Shown piece by piece: positions 21,903 through 27,294 of a stretch of DNA of 53,787 nucleotides. Origin of the DNA: Phycisphaerae bacterium (GTDB taxonomy: Bacteria > Planctomycetota > Phycisphaerae > JAAYCJ01); assembly GCA_012729815.1 (NCBI GenBank), contig JAAYCJ010000267.1:1-53787 (forward strand), read 5' to 3'. The position numbers and the translations under genes were made by a program. The notes beneath the pieces were generated by a model, which saw only the letters and a list, made by a program, of their open reading frames with translations, searched no databases and was not told the origin of the DNA. Within the stretch, counting starts at the first letter, position 1, and each line of letters opens with the position of its first letter.

Positions 21903-22989
21903 GTACGAGTTGAGCGGCGAGTGGCATCGGATGGGCGGTCAGTTGGGCCGGGCCCAGGCCCTGGAGATTCGCCGGTTCAACGAACACTTTTTCGATTCGC
22001 CGATCAACCGGTTTCGGTTCGGGTCGCTGGAGCGGGTCTGGGAATACGCGGCGAAGGTGTCGCGGGTGCTGGAGGAGTTCAGCGGCTGTGCGTTTCATTT
22101 CCTGCGCGGGATGGCGGAAGGGGCGTCGCTGCCGATGGAGCGGGTGGTGGCCCAGGCCTGCGCGCCGGAGCTGACGCACATCGCCGGCGAGTCGGACTTC
22201 GCGGCGATCGGATGCACGGCGTGCGGCGTCAGTTCGTCGGTCAGCACGACGCAGAGCGCGCTGCTGGCTCAGAATTGGGATTTCAATTTCGATCTGCCCG
22301 CCTGGTACGTGCTGCGGCTTCGCCCGCCGCTGGACGAGCCGGCGCGGGTGATGGTGGGCATGGGTGCGGTGTTCGCGTGCTGCGGCGTGAGCGGAACGGG
22401 ACTGGCGGCGACGTTCACCTCATCGGGGCACCTGCCGCCGGTTCGGCCGACGGCGGGACTGCCGGTGACCGCGCTGGTGCTCGAGGTGTTGGGCAGCCAG
22501 GATTTCGACGAGGCGATGGGCGTGGCGGTGGCGCTGCCGCGGGCGGGATCGTTCAACATGATGGTGACCGAGGAGTACACCCGCAACGCCCTGGTCGAGG
22601 CGACACCCAGACGGGTGGAGATCATCGACGGCAAAGAGACGCTGGTCGCGGGCAACCACTTTCAGCACCCGGCGATGGTGGCCAGGACGGCGCAGGACCT
22701 GACGCCGCCCGACCGGGCGGGCAGGGAGTTCGCCCGCAGCAGCGTGCTTCGGGCTGAGCGGTTTGAGGATTTGCTGGCGAACCGGCCGTCGAATGGGCTG
22801 ACGCCGGAGGCGCTGATGGGGTGCCTCAAGGACCACGCGAACCATCCGCTGTCGATCTGCTGCCACGAGGAAGAGACGCTGCTGCGGTTCCGCACCCAGG
22901 GTTCGGTGCTCTTGGAGCCGGCGGCGCAGGCGCTGCGGTTCTGTTCGGGCCAGCCGTGTTGCGGACGGTTCGAGACGTATCCGTTGTGA
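21880..22989 (+). CDS. Acyltransferase/amidohydrolase of the C45 (isopenicillin-N acyltransferase-like) family
   Basis: An Ntn-hydrolase-type enzyme, likely cleaving or transferring an amide-linked acyl chain. The family is shown by GCTACGVSSSV with candidate nucleophile Cys112, which becomes the N-terminus after self-cleavage, followed by LLAQNWDFNFD at 128-138. Later parts, GMGAVFACCGVSGTGLAATF and the FNMMVTEE strand, also fit. In family members the segment before Cys is removed. There is no signal peptide, so it acts in the cytosol. The start, ATG 21880, has GAGGAGG nine bases upstream, inside the end of the DedA gene, so they are translationally coupled. The true substrate is unknown. 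Confidence 0.83.
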   Translation: MPTAPVIEYELSGEWHRMGGQLGRAQALEIRRFNEHFFDSPINRFRFGSLERVWEYAAKVSRVLEEFSGCAFHFLRGMAEGASLPMERVVAQACAPELTHIAGESDFAAIGCTACGVSSSVSTTQSALLAQNWDFNFDLPAWYVLRLRPPLDEPARVMVGMGAVFACCGVSGTGLAATFTSSGHLPPVRPTAGLPVTALVLEVLGSQDFDEAMGVAVALPRAGSFNMMVTEEYTRNALVEATPRRVEIIDGKETLVAGNHFQHPAMVARTAQDLTPPDRAGREFARSSVLRAERFEDLLANRPSNGLTPEALMGCLKDHANHPLSICCHEEETLLRFRTQGSVLLEPAAQALRFCSGQPCCGRFETYPL

Positions 22990-23003
22990 CGGAAGCTGTC
23001 GGC

Positions 23004-25343
23004 ATGGACGTCAACGATTTCCTTCAGACGATGCAGCGGCGGGGCGAATATCGGGACCAGATCGCCCACATCCGGGAGATTCCGGCCCGCGAGGCGCGGT
23101 ACGGCATGCCGCGGGAGCCGCTGCCCGAGGCGATCGCCGACGCCCTGTCGCAGGAGAAGATCGAGCGGCTCTACGAGCACCAGAGCCTGTCGGTGGACAT
23201 GGCCCGATCCGGGCGCGACCTGATGATCGTGACGGGCACCGCCTCGGGCAAGACGATGTGCTACAATCTGCCGGTGATCGAGACGCTGCTGTCGGACCCG
23301 TCGGCGCGGGCGATGTACATTTTTCCGACCAAGGCTCTGGCCCAGGATCAGCTTGCCCGCTTGAAGCGGTGGGCGGGTTACAACGAGGCGCTGAAGCAGG
23401 CGGTGCGTCCGGCGACCTACGACGGCGATACGCCCTCGTCGCAGCGGACCAGGATTCGCAAGCAGGCCAGCATCATCCTGACCAACCCGGACATGCTGCA
23501 CCAGGGGATTCTGCCGTACCACGCCAAGTGGAGCGAGTTTTTGCGGAACCTGCGGTGGCTGGTGATCGACGAGATGCACATCTACCGCGGGATTTTCGGC
23601 TCGCAGGTTGCCAACGTGCTGCGCCGGCTGGACCGGGTGCTGGAGTTTCACGGGGCCGAGTGCCGTTACATCGGCTGTTCGGCGACGATCGGCAATCCGC
23701 AGGAGTTGGGTGAGCTTCTGACGGGCCGGAAGCTCGATGTGATCGAGAAGGACGGCTCGCCGCGGGGCAAGAAGTACTTCGTACTGTGGAACCCGCCGTT
23801 CGTGGATGACGGTCGGGTGGTGCGGCGGTCGGCGAACATCGAGGGCAAGCGGCTGTTCACCGAGCTGGTGCGAAGCGGCGTACAGACCATCGTATTCACC
23901 CGGGCCCGGGTGGTGGCTGAGCTGATCTACAAGTACGCGGTCGAGGAGTTCCGGCAGCACAACGAGAACGAACTGGGCAAACGGATCAAACCGTATCGCG
24001 GCGGCTTCCTGCCGGAAGAGCGGCGGCAGATCGAGCAACAGCTCTTTTCGGGCAAGCTGATGGGCGTCAGCGCGACGACGGCGCTGGAGTTGGGGATCGA
24101 CGTGGGCAGCCTCGACGCGGCGGTGCTGGTCGGTTACCCGGGCACGGTCAGTTCGGCATGGCAGCAGGCCGGCCGGGCCGGACGGCGATCGGAGCAGTCG
24201 TTGGCCATCCTGGTGGCGTACAACGATCCGATCGACCAGTACCTGATGCACCATCCGGACTATTTCTTCTCGCGGAACGTCGAGCGGGCGATCGTCGATC
24301 CGTCCAATCCGCACATCCTGGCCAGCCAGTTGGCGTGTGCGGCGTTCGAGCTGCCGCTGGCGACCCACGACGGGCATTTCTTCGGGCCGAAGTTCGCCTC
24401 CACGCTGGAGGCCCTGGCGGGCGAGGAGGGCCAGCTTCGCCGGATCGTCGACCGCTGGTACCACGCCAGCAGCACATTCCCAGCCGCCCACGTAAATCTG
24501 CGGACGATCAGCGAGAGCAGCTACGCCGTGGTCGACGCGTCGGGCAAAGAGAACCAGGTAATCGGCAGCATTGACAGCACCTCAGCTCCGGAACAGCTCT
24601 ATCCGGGAGCGGTCTACCTGCACGAGGGGCGAAGCTACGTGGTGAGCGAGTTGGACCTGGCCACGCGGGTGGCGATGGTCAAACCCGCTGAGGTCGACTA
24701 CTACACCCAGCCGGTGCTGCACAGCCGTTCGGAAATTCTGGCCGATGAGGCCCAGGCGACCGGCCCGTGCGGTGCGGTCACATTCGGACGGGTCAAAGTA
24801 ATCTGGCAGACGGTTGCGTTCAAGAAACTCAAGTTTTACACGATGGAGGTTGTCGGCCAGGACGCCCTGGACCTTCCGGAGTTGGACCTGGACACCCGCG
24901 GCCTGTGGTTTCTGCCGGATGAGTCGATCTGGGACGAGGTCCGCGACGCCGGTTACGTGCCCATCCAGGCCCTCAGCGGCCTTCGCAACCTGATGATCTG
25001 GTCATTGCCGATTTTGGCCATGTGCGACCCGCAGGACATCGGCGGGCAGATTAACGTCAACCGCTTCCAGCGGCCGGCGATCATACTTTATGATCGTTAT
25101 CTGGGCGGTTTAGGATTCTCCCGCCGCGGGTTCGACGAGTTCGAGACGCTGCTGAAGCTGGCCCACCAGATCGTGGCCGAGTGCACGTGTGAGGGCGGTT
25201 GTCCGTCGTGCGTGGGCCTGCCGCTGTTGCGGGCTCCGATCCATCAGGACCCGGACCTTCAGGGGCGCCCGGAAATCCCGGACAAGGAGGGGACGCTATT
25301 TCTGCTGGAACGGTTCCGGGAGCGGGAGTGGCGGATGTGCTGA
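23004..25343 (+). CDS. MrfA/YprA-like DEAD/DEAH helicase with zinc-binding C-terminus
   Basis: A superfamily 2 DNA helicase related to Bacillus MrfA (YprA) and eukaryotic Hrq1, which unwind DNA 3' to 5' in repair of crosslinks such as those from mitomycin. Motif I is GTASGKT at 78-84, motif II is DEMH at 189-192, motif III CSAT, then TTALELGIDVG and WQQAGRAGRR as motifs V and VI. The C-terminal DUF1998-like domain ends with four close cysteines, CTCEGGCPSC, from about residue 727, the metal site of the family. The MrfB (YprB) nuclease that usually accompanies it is not in the window. Start ATG 23004 is 14 bases after the preceding stop. Length is 779 residues. Confidence 0.88.
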   Translation: MDVNDFLQTMQRRGEYRDQIAHIREIPAREARYGMPREPLPEAIADALSQEKIERLYEHQSLSVDMARSGRDLMIVTGTASGKTMCYNLPVIETLLSDPSARAMYIFPTKALAQDQLARLKRWAGYNEALKQAVRPATYDGDTPSSQRTRIRKQASIILTNPDMLHQGILPYHAKWSEFLRNLRWLVIDEMHIYRGIFGSQVANVLRRLDRVLEFHGAECRYIGCSATIGNPQELGELLTGRKLDVIEKDGSPRGKKYFVLWNPPFVDDGRVVRRSANIEGKRLFTELVRSGVQTIVFTRARVVAELIYKYAVEEFRQHNENELGKRIKPYRGGFLPEERRQIEQQLFSGKLMGVSATTALELGIDVGSLDAAVLVGYPGTVSSAWQQAGRAGRRSEQSLAILVAYNDPIDQYLMHHPDYFFSRNVERAIVDPSNPHILASQLACAAFELPLATHDGHFFGPKFASTLEALAGEEGQLRRIVDRWYHASSTFPAAHVNLRTISESSYAVVDASGKENQVIGSIDSTSAPEQLYPGAVYLHEGRSYVVSELDLATRVAMVKPAEVDYYTQPVLHSRSEILADEAQATGPCGAVTFGRVKVIWQTVAFKKLKFYTMEVVGQDALDLPELDLDTRGLWFLPDESIWDEVRDAGYVPIQALSGLRNLMIWSLPILAMCDPQDIGGQINVNRFQRPAIILYDRYLGGLGFSRRGFDEFETLLKLAHQIVAECTCEGGCPSCVGLPLLRAPIHQDPDLQGRPEIPDKEGTLFLLERFREREWRMC

Positions 25344-25385: not shown

Positions 25386-25414
25386 TTGACGTATCCTGCG
25401 TGCGGCCTTAAGAT
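25386..25414 (+). promoter_or_regulatory. Promoter of the micro-lipoprotein array
   Basis: TTGACG at 25386-25391, a 17-base spacer, TAAGAT at 25409-25414. The third small gene has a closely similar promoter (25950-25978), which supports both. Confidence 0.6.
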
Positions 25415-25474
25415 CGGGCGCGACACGGGAAGGAATATCGGCCCAGCTCCCCTGCTGTTGCCGGAGGAGATTTG

Positions 25475-25624
25475 ATGAAACGGATACTCGTGCAGGTCGT
25501 GCTGCTCATCATGGTGATGATGACCTGGGGCTGTACGTCTTCGGAGATCTTAAATCTGCTGGCATCGATCAGACTCGGCGGCGGCAGCGGCAGCAGCGGC
25601 GGCTGCAGCAGTTGCGGCTGGTAG
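25475..25624 (+). CDS. Micro-lipoprotein 1 of a tandem family
   Basis: A 49-residue protein below usual gene-calling limits. It begins MKRILVQVVLLIMVMMTWGC, a full lipoprotein signal with the lipid-bearing Cys at 20. After cleavage only 30 residues remain: a short hydrophobic segment EILNLLASIRL, a glycine-serine run, and the ending GGCSSCGW. GGAGGAG six to seven bases before ATG 25475 is a strong ribosome binding site. The last residues recur almost unchanged in the next small gene. I know of no family for it. A membrane-anchored peptide with a C-terminal Cys pair could bind metal, form a disulfide, or be processed. Confidence 0.75.
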   Translation: MKRILVQVVLLIMVMMTWGCTSSEILNLLASIRLGGGSGSSGGCSSCGW

Positions 25625-25729
25625 AGGGGTCCGCCGTGCGCGAGACGGTCGAGAGGCCGCAGCGGAATAGCGACGATCAAGCCGTGGATGGATGGTCAGG
25701 TTGAATTGCCCTTTAGTTGGAGAAACGCT

Positions 25730-25858
25730 ATGAAGAAGCTTTTGGGTATCGCGTTGCTGGGCGTAGTGATGGTGACCGGGGGCTGCTCGCCTTCGACGAT
25801 CCTGAGCCTGCTGATGTCATTCGTATTCGGCGGCGGCGGCTGCAGCAGTTGCGGCTAG
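25730..25858 (+). CDS. Micro-lipoprotein 2 of a tandem family
   Basis: A 42-residue paralogue of its neighbours. The signal MKKLLGIALLGVVMVTGGC is nearly the same as in copy 3 and has its lipid Cys at 19. The mature part is only 24 residues: TILSLLMSFVF, four glycines, then CSSCG at the very end. GGAG lies nine bases upstream of ATG 25730. It is followed by a terminator at 25885-25926. The shared 3' sequence with copy 1 (about 19 bases at the GGCSSCG coding end) points to duplication. Confidence 0.75.
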   Translation: MKKLLGIALLGVVMVTGGCSPSTILSLLMSFVFGGGGCSSCG

Positions 25859-25884
25859 AGGCGGTTTCCCTCCTGAAAGAAACG

Positions 25885-25926
25885 GACCGGGCAGCCACGA
25901 CAGTGGCGGTTCGGTCTTCTTTTTTT
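25885..25926 (+). terminator. Terminator after micro-lipoprotein 2
   Basis: Stem GACCG (25885-25889) with CGGTC (25912-25916) and inner stem CCAC-GACA-GTGG (25895-25906), joined by an internal loop, then TTCTTTTTTT. Confidence 0.65.
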
Positions 25927-25949
25927 GCGGCGGCGGTTTTGGTGAAGGG

Positions 25950-25978
25950 TTGACGTTTGAGGGTCCGATAATTAAGCT
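25950..25978 (+). promoter_or_regulatory. Promoter of micro-lipoprotein 3
   Basis: TTGACG at 25950-25955, a 17-base spacer, TAAGCT at 25973-25978. It lies between the terminator of copy 2 and the start of copy 3 and resembles the promoter of copy 1. Confidence 0.5.
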
Positions 25979-26022
25979 GTGGGTATGGTAGGCCCAGATT
26001 GCACTTTTTTCGGAGGAAAGCC

Positions 26023-26169
26023 ATGAAGAAGCTGTTGGGTATTGCGGTATTGGGTGCGGTGGTGTGCAGCGGCTGTGCGACGTTGCCGGCGGAAACGAAC
26101 AGCATGATCTCTTCGCTGATCCTGAACCTGATCATGGGATTCCTGACCGGTGGGATGACCGGCATCTAG
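26023..26169 (+). CDS. Micro-lipoprotein 3 of a tandem family
   Basis: A 48-residue paralogue. MKKLLGIAVLGAVVCSGC repeats the signal of copy 2, with the lipid Cys at 18. The mature part keeps the hydrophobic stretch (SSLILNLIMGFLTGG) but lacks the terminal Cys pair and ends in MTGI. CGGAGGA seven bases before ATG 26023 is a strong ribosome binding site. It has its own promoter and terminator, so it can be expressed separately from copies 1 and 2. The mature segment could lie in or on the membrane as an amphipathic helix. Confidence 0.75.
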   Translation: MKKLLGIAVLGAVVCSGCATLPAETNSMISSLILNLIMGFLTGGMTGI

Positions 26170-26193
26170 CATCGCTTCGACAGTAAGAGGGCC

Positions 26194-26229
26194 GGCCGGT
26201 GGATCCGCGATCCATCGGCCGTTTTGTTT
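26194..26229 (+). terminator. Terminator after micro-lipoprotein 3
   Basis: An 11-bp stem with one G-T pair (GGCCGGTGGAT at 26194-26204, ATCCATCGGCC at 26210-26220), loop CCGCG, then GTTTTGTTT. It also lies at the end of the convergent UroD-like gene. Confidence 0.75.
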
Positions 26230-26247: not shown

Positions 26248-27225
26248 TCAGGCCTGCGGGTAGTTGCCTTCCTTTCGCCAGACGTCGAGGATCCGTTCGT
26301 AGCGGCTCAGACGCATGCCGGTGTAGACGCAGTTGGAGGTTGAGAAGATGTAGCCGCCGCCGGGCATGCCGTGCCGCAGAGCGTAGCGGGCGCTTTCGGC
26401 GCACTCGGCTTCGGTGCCGGTATCGAGCAGGCCGCAGTTGACGTTGCCGACCAGGCAGACCTGCTTGCCGTAGCGGCGTTTGACGTCGGCGATGTCGACG
26501 CCGCCCTGGGGGTCGAGGCTGTGGAGGGCGTGCGGACGGCACTGGATCAACTGGTCGATGATGGGCATGATGTTGCCGTCGGTGTGCTTGATGGTGTAAA
26601 GGCCCATGTCACGGTAGGCCTTGATGAGCTTTTCAAGATAGGGCGCGACGAACTCGCTGAACTGCCGCGGCGAGAGAAACGGACCAGTGTTGAAGCAGTA
26701 GTCGGCGCAGAGGGCCATGCCGTCCAGCGGGCCGTCGGCGAAGTAGGTTTCCGCATCGCGGATGGCGTTGTCGACGCGCTCGGCGGCTTCGCGTTTGACG
26801 CCCTCGGGATCGTCGCCGAGTCGGCAGGCGAATTCGAGCATGCTGTCGCCGCCGGGCACACTGAAGGTGGCGTCGCCGTGCTTCATGAGGAAGAACTTCT
26901 CGCCGGTCTTCTCGCGAATGATCTGGGCCTGGCGGCGGAATTCCTCGGACGAAACGGCGCCGGAGAGGAAAATGGCGGAGTGCTCGAAGCGTTCAGCCGA
27001 TTGGATCAGGACGTCGGCCATGTCGCAGCGGTGCAGTTCGCGTTCCGTTTCGGTCATCTGGCCCCACTGGTGGTAGTTGCGGTGTTCCGGGTGGACCTTG
27101 CCGAAGACTTCCATGGTCAGATAGAAGCGCAGCTCGAAGTGCGGCACACGGCCCGGAGGCTGCTTGCCCTCGAGGGCCATGATGAACTTCTCACGCGGGG
27201 TCAGGGGCATCGCTTGGTTCTCCAT
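26248..27225 (-). CDS. Uroporphyrinogen decarboxylase family protein (URO-D/MtaA-like)
   Basis: A TIM-barrel protein of the URO-D superfamily, more likely a methyltransferase-like or sugar-locus member than the haem enzyme. It begins with TPREKFIMALEGKQPPGRVP, the family N-terminus, and includes YTIKHTDGNIMPIIDQLI, ALHSLDPQGGVDIADVKRRYG and LVGNVNCGLL, which line the barrel. In corrinoid methyltransferases, His and Cys of such segments bind zinc; His in KHTDGN and Cys in NVNCG are present here. The closing SNCVYTGMRLSRYE is common in planctomycete members. Start at ATG 27225 or 27210. Length is 325 residues. The substrate is unknown. Confidence 0.85.
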   Translation of the reverse strand: MENQAMPLTPREKFIMALEGKQPPGRVPHFELRFYLTMEVFGKVHPEHRNYHQWGQMTETERELHRCDMADVLIQSAERFEHSAIFLSGAVSSEEFRRQAQIIREKTGEKFFLMKHGDATFSVPGGDSMLEFACRLGDDPEGVKREAAERVDNAIRDAETYFADGPLDGMALCADYCFNTGPFLSPRQFSEFVAPYLEKLIKAYRDMGLYTIKHTDGNIMPIIDQLIQCRPHALHSLDPQGGVDIADVKRRYGKQVCLVGNVNCGLLDTGTEAECAESARYALRHGMPGGGYIFSTSNCVYTGMRLSRYERILDVWRKEGNYPQA

Positions 27226-27294
27226 CACTGCCTTGGGTCGGTCTTCGGCGTACTATAGCCGTGGGTGCAAAACGGTGCAAACCAAATGTCAGGG

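Follow-up and report, generated by a model that had tools for sequence, protein, structure and literature searches.

The 53,787-nt stretch of Phycisphaerae DNA analysed here (hereafter the window) carries an array of three very small lipoprotein ORFs on the plus strand, flanked on one side by a DEAD/MZB (MrfA/Hrq1-like) helicase gene that ends at 25343 and on the other by a convergent URO-D-like gene on the minus strand (26248-27228). Copy 1 (25475-25624) encodes 49 aa, with the Shine-Dalgarno (SD) sequence GGAGGAG, the lipobox MTWG/C and the mature chain CTSSEILNLLASIRLGGGSGSSGGCSSCGW; ATG 25475 gives this 49-aa form, and TTG 25472 is an alternative in-frame start. Copy 2 (25730-25858) encodes 42 aa, with the SD sequence GGAG, the lipobox VTGG/C and the mature chain CSPSTILSLLMSFVFGGGGCSSCG. 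Copy 3 (26023-26169) encodes 48 aa, with the SD sequence GGAGG, the lipobox CSG/C and the mature chain CATLPAETNSMISSLILNLIMGFLTGGMTGI, which has no tail Cys. The GGAG-type SD sequences lie about 5-8 nt 5' of the starts, the lipobox Cys is residue 20, 19 and 18 in copies 1, 2 and 3, respectively, and the mature chains comprise 30, 24 and 31 residues. These ORFs bear out a preliminary description of this DNA, which had named three head-to-tail genes of 49, 42 and 48 codons with mature chains of 24-31 residues; the ribosome binding site and full lipoprotein signal that it assigned to each gene are likewise found in all three, as a GGAG-type SD sequence and a lipobox Cys.

The tested neighbours are mostly housekeeping genes, and no functional partner for the micro-lipoproteins was found in the neighbourhood. 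The flanking helicase (22821-25343), of the MrfA/Hrq1 type with DEAD, WHD_HRQ1 and MZB domains, had a match at E ≤ 1e-30 in only one (G012, 34% identity) of the 12 relatives searched. Since it gave no match at this threshold in either of two same-family genomes, the synteny of the locus is not comparable with them.

Paralogs and conserved core of the micro-lipoproteins

A whole-genome search with a single copy as query revealed a fourth copy of 38 codons, MKKAAVLSLAAVAVVMCGGCTGSGILSLLFSFLGGGCG, elsewhere in this genome (contig C86, 10429-10545; E 7e-4). By sequence comparison, copy 1 is homologous to copies 2-4, and the mature chains of the family span 19-31 residues. A scan of the genome for the lipobox-to-ILxL pattern gave no further member. 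At the nucleotide and residue level, duplication of the copies is shown by DNA repeats of 72-76% together with shuffle tests: a 108-nt repeat (72%) links copies 1 and 2, a 67-nt repeat (76%) that takes in the leader and SD sequence links copies 2 and 3, and, with the Cys left out, the mature regions resemble each other more than shuffled sequences do in all six pairs (P 0.0002-0.006). The origin by duplication proposed in the preliminary description thus holds, as do two details given there, the stretch MKKLLGIA common to copies 2 and 3 and the common 3' coding end of copies 1 and 2, which amounts to 22 identical nt (GGCGGCTGCAGCAGTTGCGGCT). This 22-nt identity may reflect recent conversion or selection.

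Alignment of the four copies defines a conserved core, present in all of them, that consists of the lipobox Cys, a spacer, the motif S-x-I-L-x-L-[LI]-x-[SG]-[FI] and a Gly-rich end. The spacer between the Cys and the motif has 2-3 residues, and 12 in copy 3. Type II signal features are also found in the four copies, namely an MK[KR] n-region, an h-region with a mean hydropathy of 2.5-2.8, lipobox-like residues and a Cys at position 18-20; the least canonical lipobox is that of copy 1 (TWG/C). The mature chains contain 2, 0, 1 and 0 charged residues in copies 1-4 and have hydrophobic moments of 0.34-0.43. An AlphaFold2 model of copy 2, built on the four-row alignment, has low confidence (pLDDT 62, pTM 0.30) and places helices at residues 4-16 (signal) and 21-33 (just past the Cys), followed by an unstructured tail. 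The CSSCG tail, which had been described as common to the array, is confined to copies 1 and 2: copy 3 lacks a Cys in its tail, and the later-found copy 4 ends in GGGCG. A GGCSSCG C-terminus, found in two of the four copies, is thus not a family trait. Judged from the alignment, the conserved unit of the family is the lipid-anchored, nearly uncharged predicted helix after the lipobox Cys, not the tail.

Two further small lipoprotein ORFs were noticed in the same genome. One starts near 27640 of contig C21 (minus strand; L013, L097 17641) behind a strong SD sequence and encodes a second, 47-aa micro-lipoprotein, MKRMMTSVKVLTIAAVALVMLPG/CCATCLIGPLLALLGLTALPAAGQ; it is unrelated and was rejected as a relative, with a shuffle P of at least 0.2. 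The other, at 18872 of L066 (contig C2, plus strand), encodes a 55-aa acidic small lipoprotein with the mature chain CEREEGPVEEAGEKIDEGIEETGEAIEDAGEGR, which appears entericidin-like by eye.

Evidence for coding

We scanned 972 kb of the genome for ORFs of 25-75 codons with an SD sequence, a basic start, a hydrophobic core and a lipobox. The scan returned 8 ORFs (in 9 rows, two of which are alternative starts of copy 1), a density that is not an unbiased estimate for the genome since the sample is non-random: the window is part of it, and some contigs, C86 and C21 among them, were chosen for holding hits. The reversed 972 kb and 5 Mb of second-order Markov sequence gave no ORF. Among class genomes, 400 kb of G004 gave none and 400 kb of G018 gave 1, as did the reversed sequence of the latter.

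The GC3 values of copies 1, 2 and 3 (0.82, 0.83 and 0.81) are close to those of neighbouring genes (0.82-0.88), unlike those of intergenic or antisense frames (0.52-0.72), and the range across the micro-lipoprotein copies is 0.79-0.83. The antisense ORFs at 25408-25680 (GC3 0.72) and 25728-26165 (GC3 0.63) were rejected on this basis. Pairwise codon comparison showed 7-12 synonymous differences per pair beside the conserved core, a count that is biased by an alignment built on protein; the codon pattern is consistent with selection on the peptide. Since ORFs combining an SD sequence, a signal and a lipobox are nearly absent from random sequence, and since GC3 is gene-like and synonymous differences occur, coding is strongly supported, and the three ORFs are very probably real, coding, duplicated genes.

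Predicted transcription units

Two putative plus-strand promoters of the same form precede the ORFs, TTGACG-N17-TAAGAT at 25386-25414, which scored 9/12 in a consensus scan, and TTGACG-N17-TAAGCT at 25950-25978. Putative intrinsic terminators on the same strand lie at 25884-25926 (a stem at 25884-25917 and then a T-rich tract; fold of 25858-25935, -34.2 kcal/mol, z -2.7) and at 26193-26225 (a 13-bp stem at 26193-26221 and then TTTTG; found by the scanner, fold z -3.9). These elements predict two units, promoter-ORF1-ORF2-terminator followed by promoter-ORF3-terminator. The form TTGACG-N17-TAAGNT occurs at two sites in the window (25386 and 25950), with 0 expected from window shuffles, and these are its only sites in the 972 kb of genome, the pattern itself being derived from them. 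Promoter 2 is weak since TAAGCT fits the -10 consensus at only 3/6 positions, and terminator 1 is absent from the output of a simple scanner. A strict scanner yielded one promoter (0.3 expected by chance) and one terminator (1.3 expected by chance). Given these yields, the self-derived pattern and the poor second -10 element, the transcription units are predictions only. The two like promoters and two terminators described earlier are retained as putative sites and stem-loops, with promoter 2 weak and terminator 1 missed by the scanner. The shared upstream motif GTCCGAT, with 180 occurrences in the sample, was dropped.

Search for relatives and for the tail pattern

Neither of the two same-family genomes, one of which is only 73% complete, yielded a relative, nor did the 100 relatives searched with copy 2 alone, where the one weak match (L007) was rejected on reading. 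In 397 class and 392 phylum genomes, which are overlapping sets, profile searches gave weak matches only and no relative; most of the matches that were read fell on signal peptides of lipoproteins or on unrelated sequence. Scanning GTDB contigs with copies 1 and 2 gave 52 pattern matches, none of which was confirmed, at a tblastn threshold of 1e-3 that is strict for 42 residues. Searches of phages and plasmids (both with copy 1 as query) and of viral contigs found no homolog. Pfam, NCBIfam, PHROGs and the PDB gave no match of any weight; the only PHROG match was a spanin (E 0.59), aligned to the signal peptide of copy 3. The preliminary view that these peptides belong to no known family agrees with these searches. 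Since such short queries are insensitive, "not found" does not equal absent from nature.

The lack of orthologs outside the own genome, in about 790 class and phylum genomes, precludes a cross-species comparison of selection. Missing homologous small ORFs in related genomes had been proposed as an argument against the three genes. None were found between genomes, but the codon-level pattern, GC3 and the paralogs still favour genes. Since these three lines argue for real genes, the absence between genomes points to a lineage-restricted family rather than an artefact, and the family is very probably lineage-restricted as far as the searches reach.

At two loci in class genomes, L014 and L031 (genomes G153 and G274; match at 1501), open frames of 239 and 279 aa encode larger lipoproteins that belong to one family and resemble the micro-lipoprotein core at their mature N-terminus, GC[NS]V[DE]T[IL]LNQ.A[ST]F. 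The similar stretch lies directly after the Cys (E 1.8e-4 and 0.034), but a long further chain follows and the resemblance is one weak stretch; we consider it a lead only.

The tail pattern had no other match in the own genome, and in the 397 class genomes only the window's copies were lipoproteins. A scan of GTDB contigs for GGCSSCG, covering AGY Ser codons only, returned Fe-S carriers, YlbF-like proteins and unrelated frames, and no micro-lipoprotein. These C-termini were seen on A-type Fe-S carrier-like proteins of Chloroflexi and others (seven loci) and on YlbF-like proteins of Paenibacillus (five loci), and a Pfam check of one protein per type placed them on an Fe-S carrier (PF01521) and a YlbF-type protein. 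In RicF (YlbF), Cys residues near the C-terminus ligate a shared Fe-S cluster (PMC6751060). By analogy only, the Fe-S protein tails show what such tails can do, not the function of the micro-lipoprotein tail.

Proposed function and alternatives

We consider that the four genes form a small lineage-restricted micro-lipoprotein family, three of them in a tandem array that arose by duplication, and that their products are envelope lipopeptides with a membrane helix; the probability of this reading is roughly 0.5. The precursors would pass through Sec, receive a lipid and be cleaved by signal peptidase II to yield envelope-held lipopeptides of 19-31 residues. Position +2 is S, T or A, with no Asp, which would direct them to the outer membrane by the E. 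coli rule, a rule that may not be that of this lineage. A short distance past the lipidated Cys, the I-L-x-L-L helix, with almost no charge, would rest on the membrane leaflet or within it, and there the peptides may gather among themselves or around a partner protein. The flexible Gly(-Ser) linker of copies 1 and 2 would present CSSC to the periplasm for disulfide formation or soft-metal binding. Since the helix is conserved and the tail is present only in some copies, the shared role is probably to associate with the membrane or to give structure by way of the helix, and the thiol tail would be an extra found in some copies. The metal-binding, redox, envelope-stress or released-lipopeptide roles suggested in the preliminary description are conjectural.

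As far as comparison of sequences goes, the family is new, and its kind, very small lipoproteins such as entericidins and LptM, is already known. Colicin lysis proteins and VirB7-type lipoproteins fall into the same size class, and VirB7 forms a disulfide via a Cys beyond the lipidated one; the micro-lipoproteins differ from both in lacking a Pfam or PHROG match and in having neighbours, as far as tested, without colicin or type IV secretion genes. LptM is about 20 residues longer than the micro-lipoproteins. This lipoprotein of about 6 kDa (YifL; PF13627) is recognised by its lipobox and a short stretch after it (PMC10567701). The micro-lipoproteins are likewise small and marked by the lipobox and adjoining stretch, but they have no PF13627 match at E up to 1.

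It is possible, but rather unlikely, that the peptides are entericidin-like or lysis-type membrane-active lipopeptides, whose accumulated helices would perturb the envelope and cause autolysis, content release or vesiculation, the array providing dose or a toxin/antidote arrangement. There is precedent in E. coli, where ecnA and ecnB form an operon, and in A. tumefaciens, whose small surface lipoprotein Atu8019 (53 aa, 32 mature) carries an entericidin annotation and occurs in outer-membrane vesicles (PMC7296081). The size class and architecture agree (tandem genes, as the adjacent E. coli genes for entericidins A and B, a lipobox, a predicted helix and a mature chain only some tens of residues long, here 19-31). 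However, no entericidin or lysis-protein model in Pfam or NCBIfam matched at E up to 1, PHROGs offered only the spanin, and the mature chains, with at most two charged residues, differ from entericidins in the nearly uncharged helix, the Gly-rich end and the CSSCG tail of two copies. Phage or bacteriocin genes are absent from the tested neighbours, homologs are missing from the phage, plasmid and viral searches, and membership among phage Rz1/spanin or colicin lysis proteins finds neither a profile match of weight nor a lysis-gene neighbourhood.

Doubtful to a similar degree is an envelope thiol or metal buffer or sensor, in which a functional CSSC tail would bind Cu(I)/Zn(II) or exchange disulfides and copies 3 and 4 would have lost or changed it. 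The identical Gly-linked CSSCG of copies 1 and 2, encoded within 22 identical nt against 72% over the longer repeat, and the similar C-termini on Fe-S proteins fit this idea, but CSSC is missing in two of the four members, recent gene conversion can explain the identity, and no metal or redox genes were recognised adjacent. A bolder combination, improbable at present, is that the uncharged helix self-assembles in the membrane and that metal or disulfide bridges between the Gly-linked CSSC tails create a layer, which would be an undescribed way to build or tune a diderm envelope.

Lipoprotein signal peptides serve as pheromones in enterococci. Short precursors in multiple copies would suit such signalling peptides, or shed lipopeptides, but conservation lies in the mature helix, and the signal-peptide ends preceding the Cys vary (VMMTWG, VMVTGG, AVVCSG, VVMCGG), making release even less probable. 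The least credible explanation is that of chance or decaying ORFs within an intergenic region, which fits the missing homologs in the other genomes searched but not the gene-like GC3, the SD sites and the lipoboxes of four paralogs or the 0 matches in 5 Mb of random sequence.

Proteins so small usually escape annotation. Duplication, the dispersed fourth copy and the coding statistics together argue firmly that these are genes, for which no orthologs were detected. The four copies offer a compact, testable set for studying the origins of orphan envelope peptides and what a short helix on a lipid anchor can achieve. Should the CSSC tail form disulfides or bind metal, the result would be an unusually minimal lipid-anchored thiol peptide.
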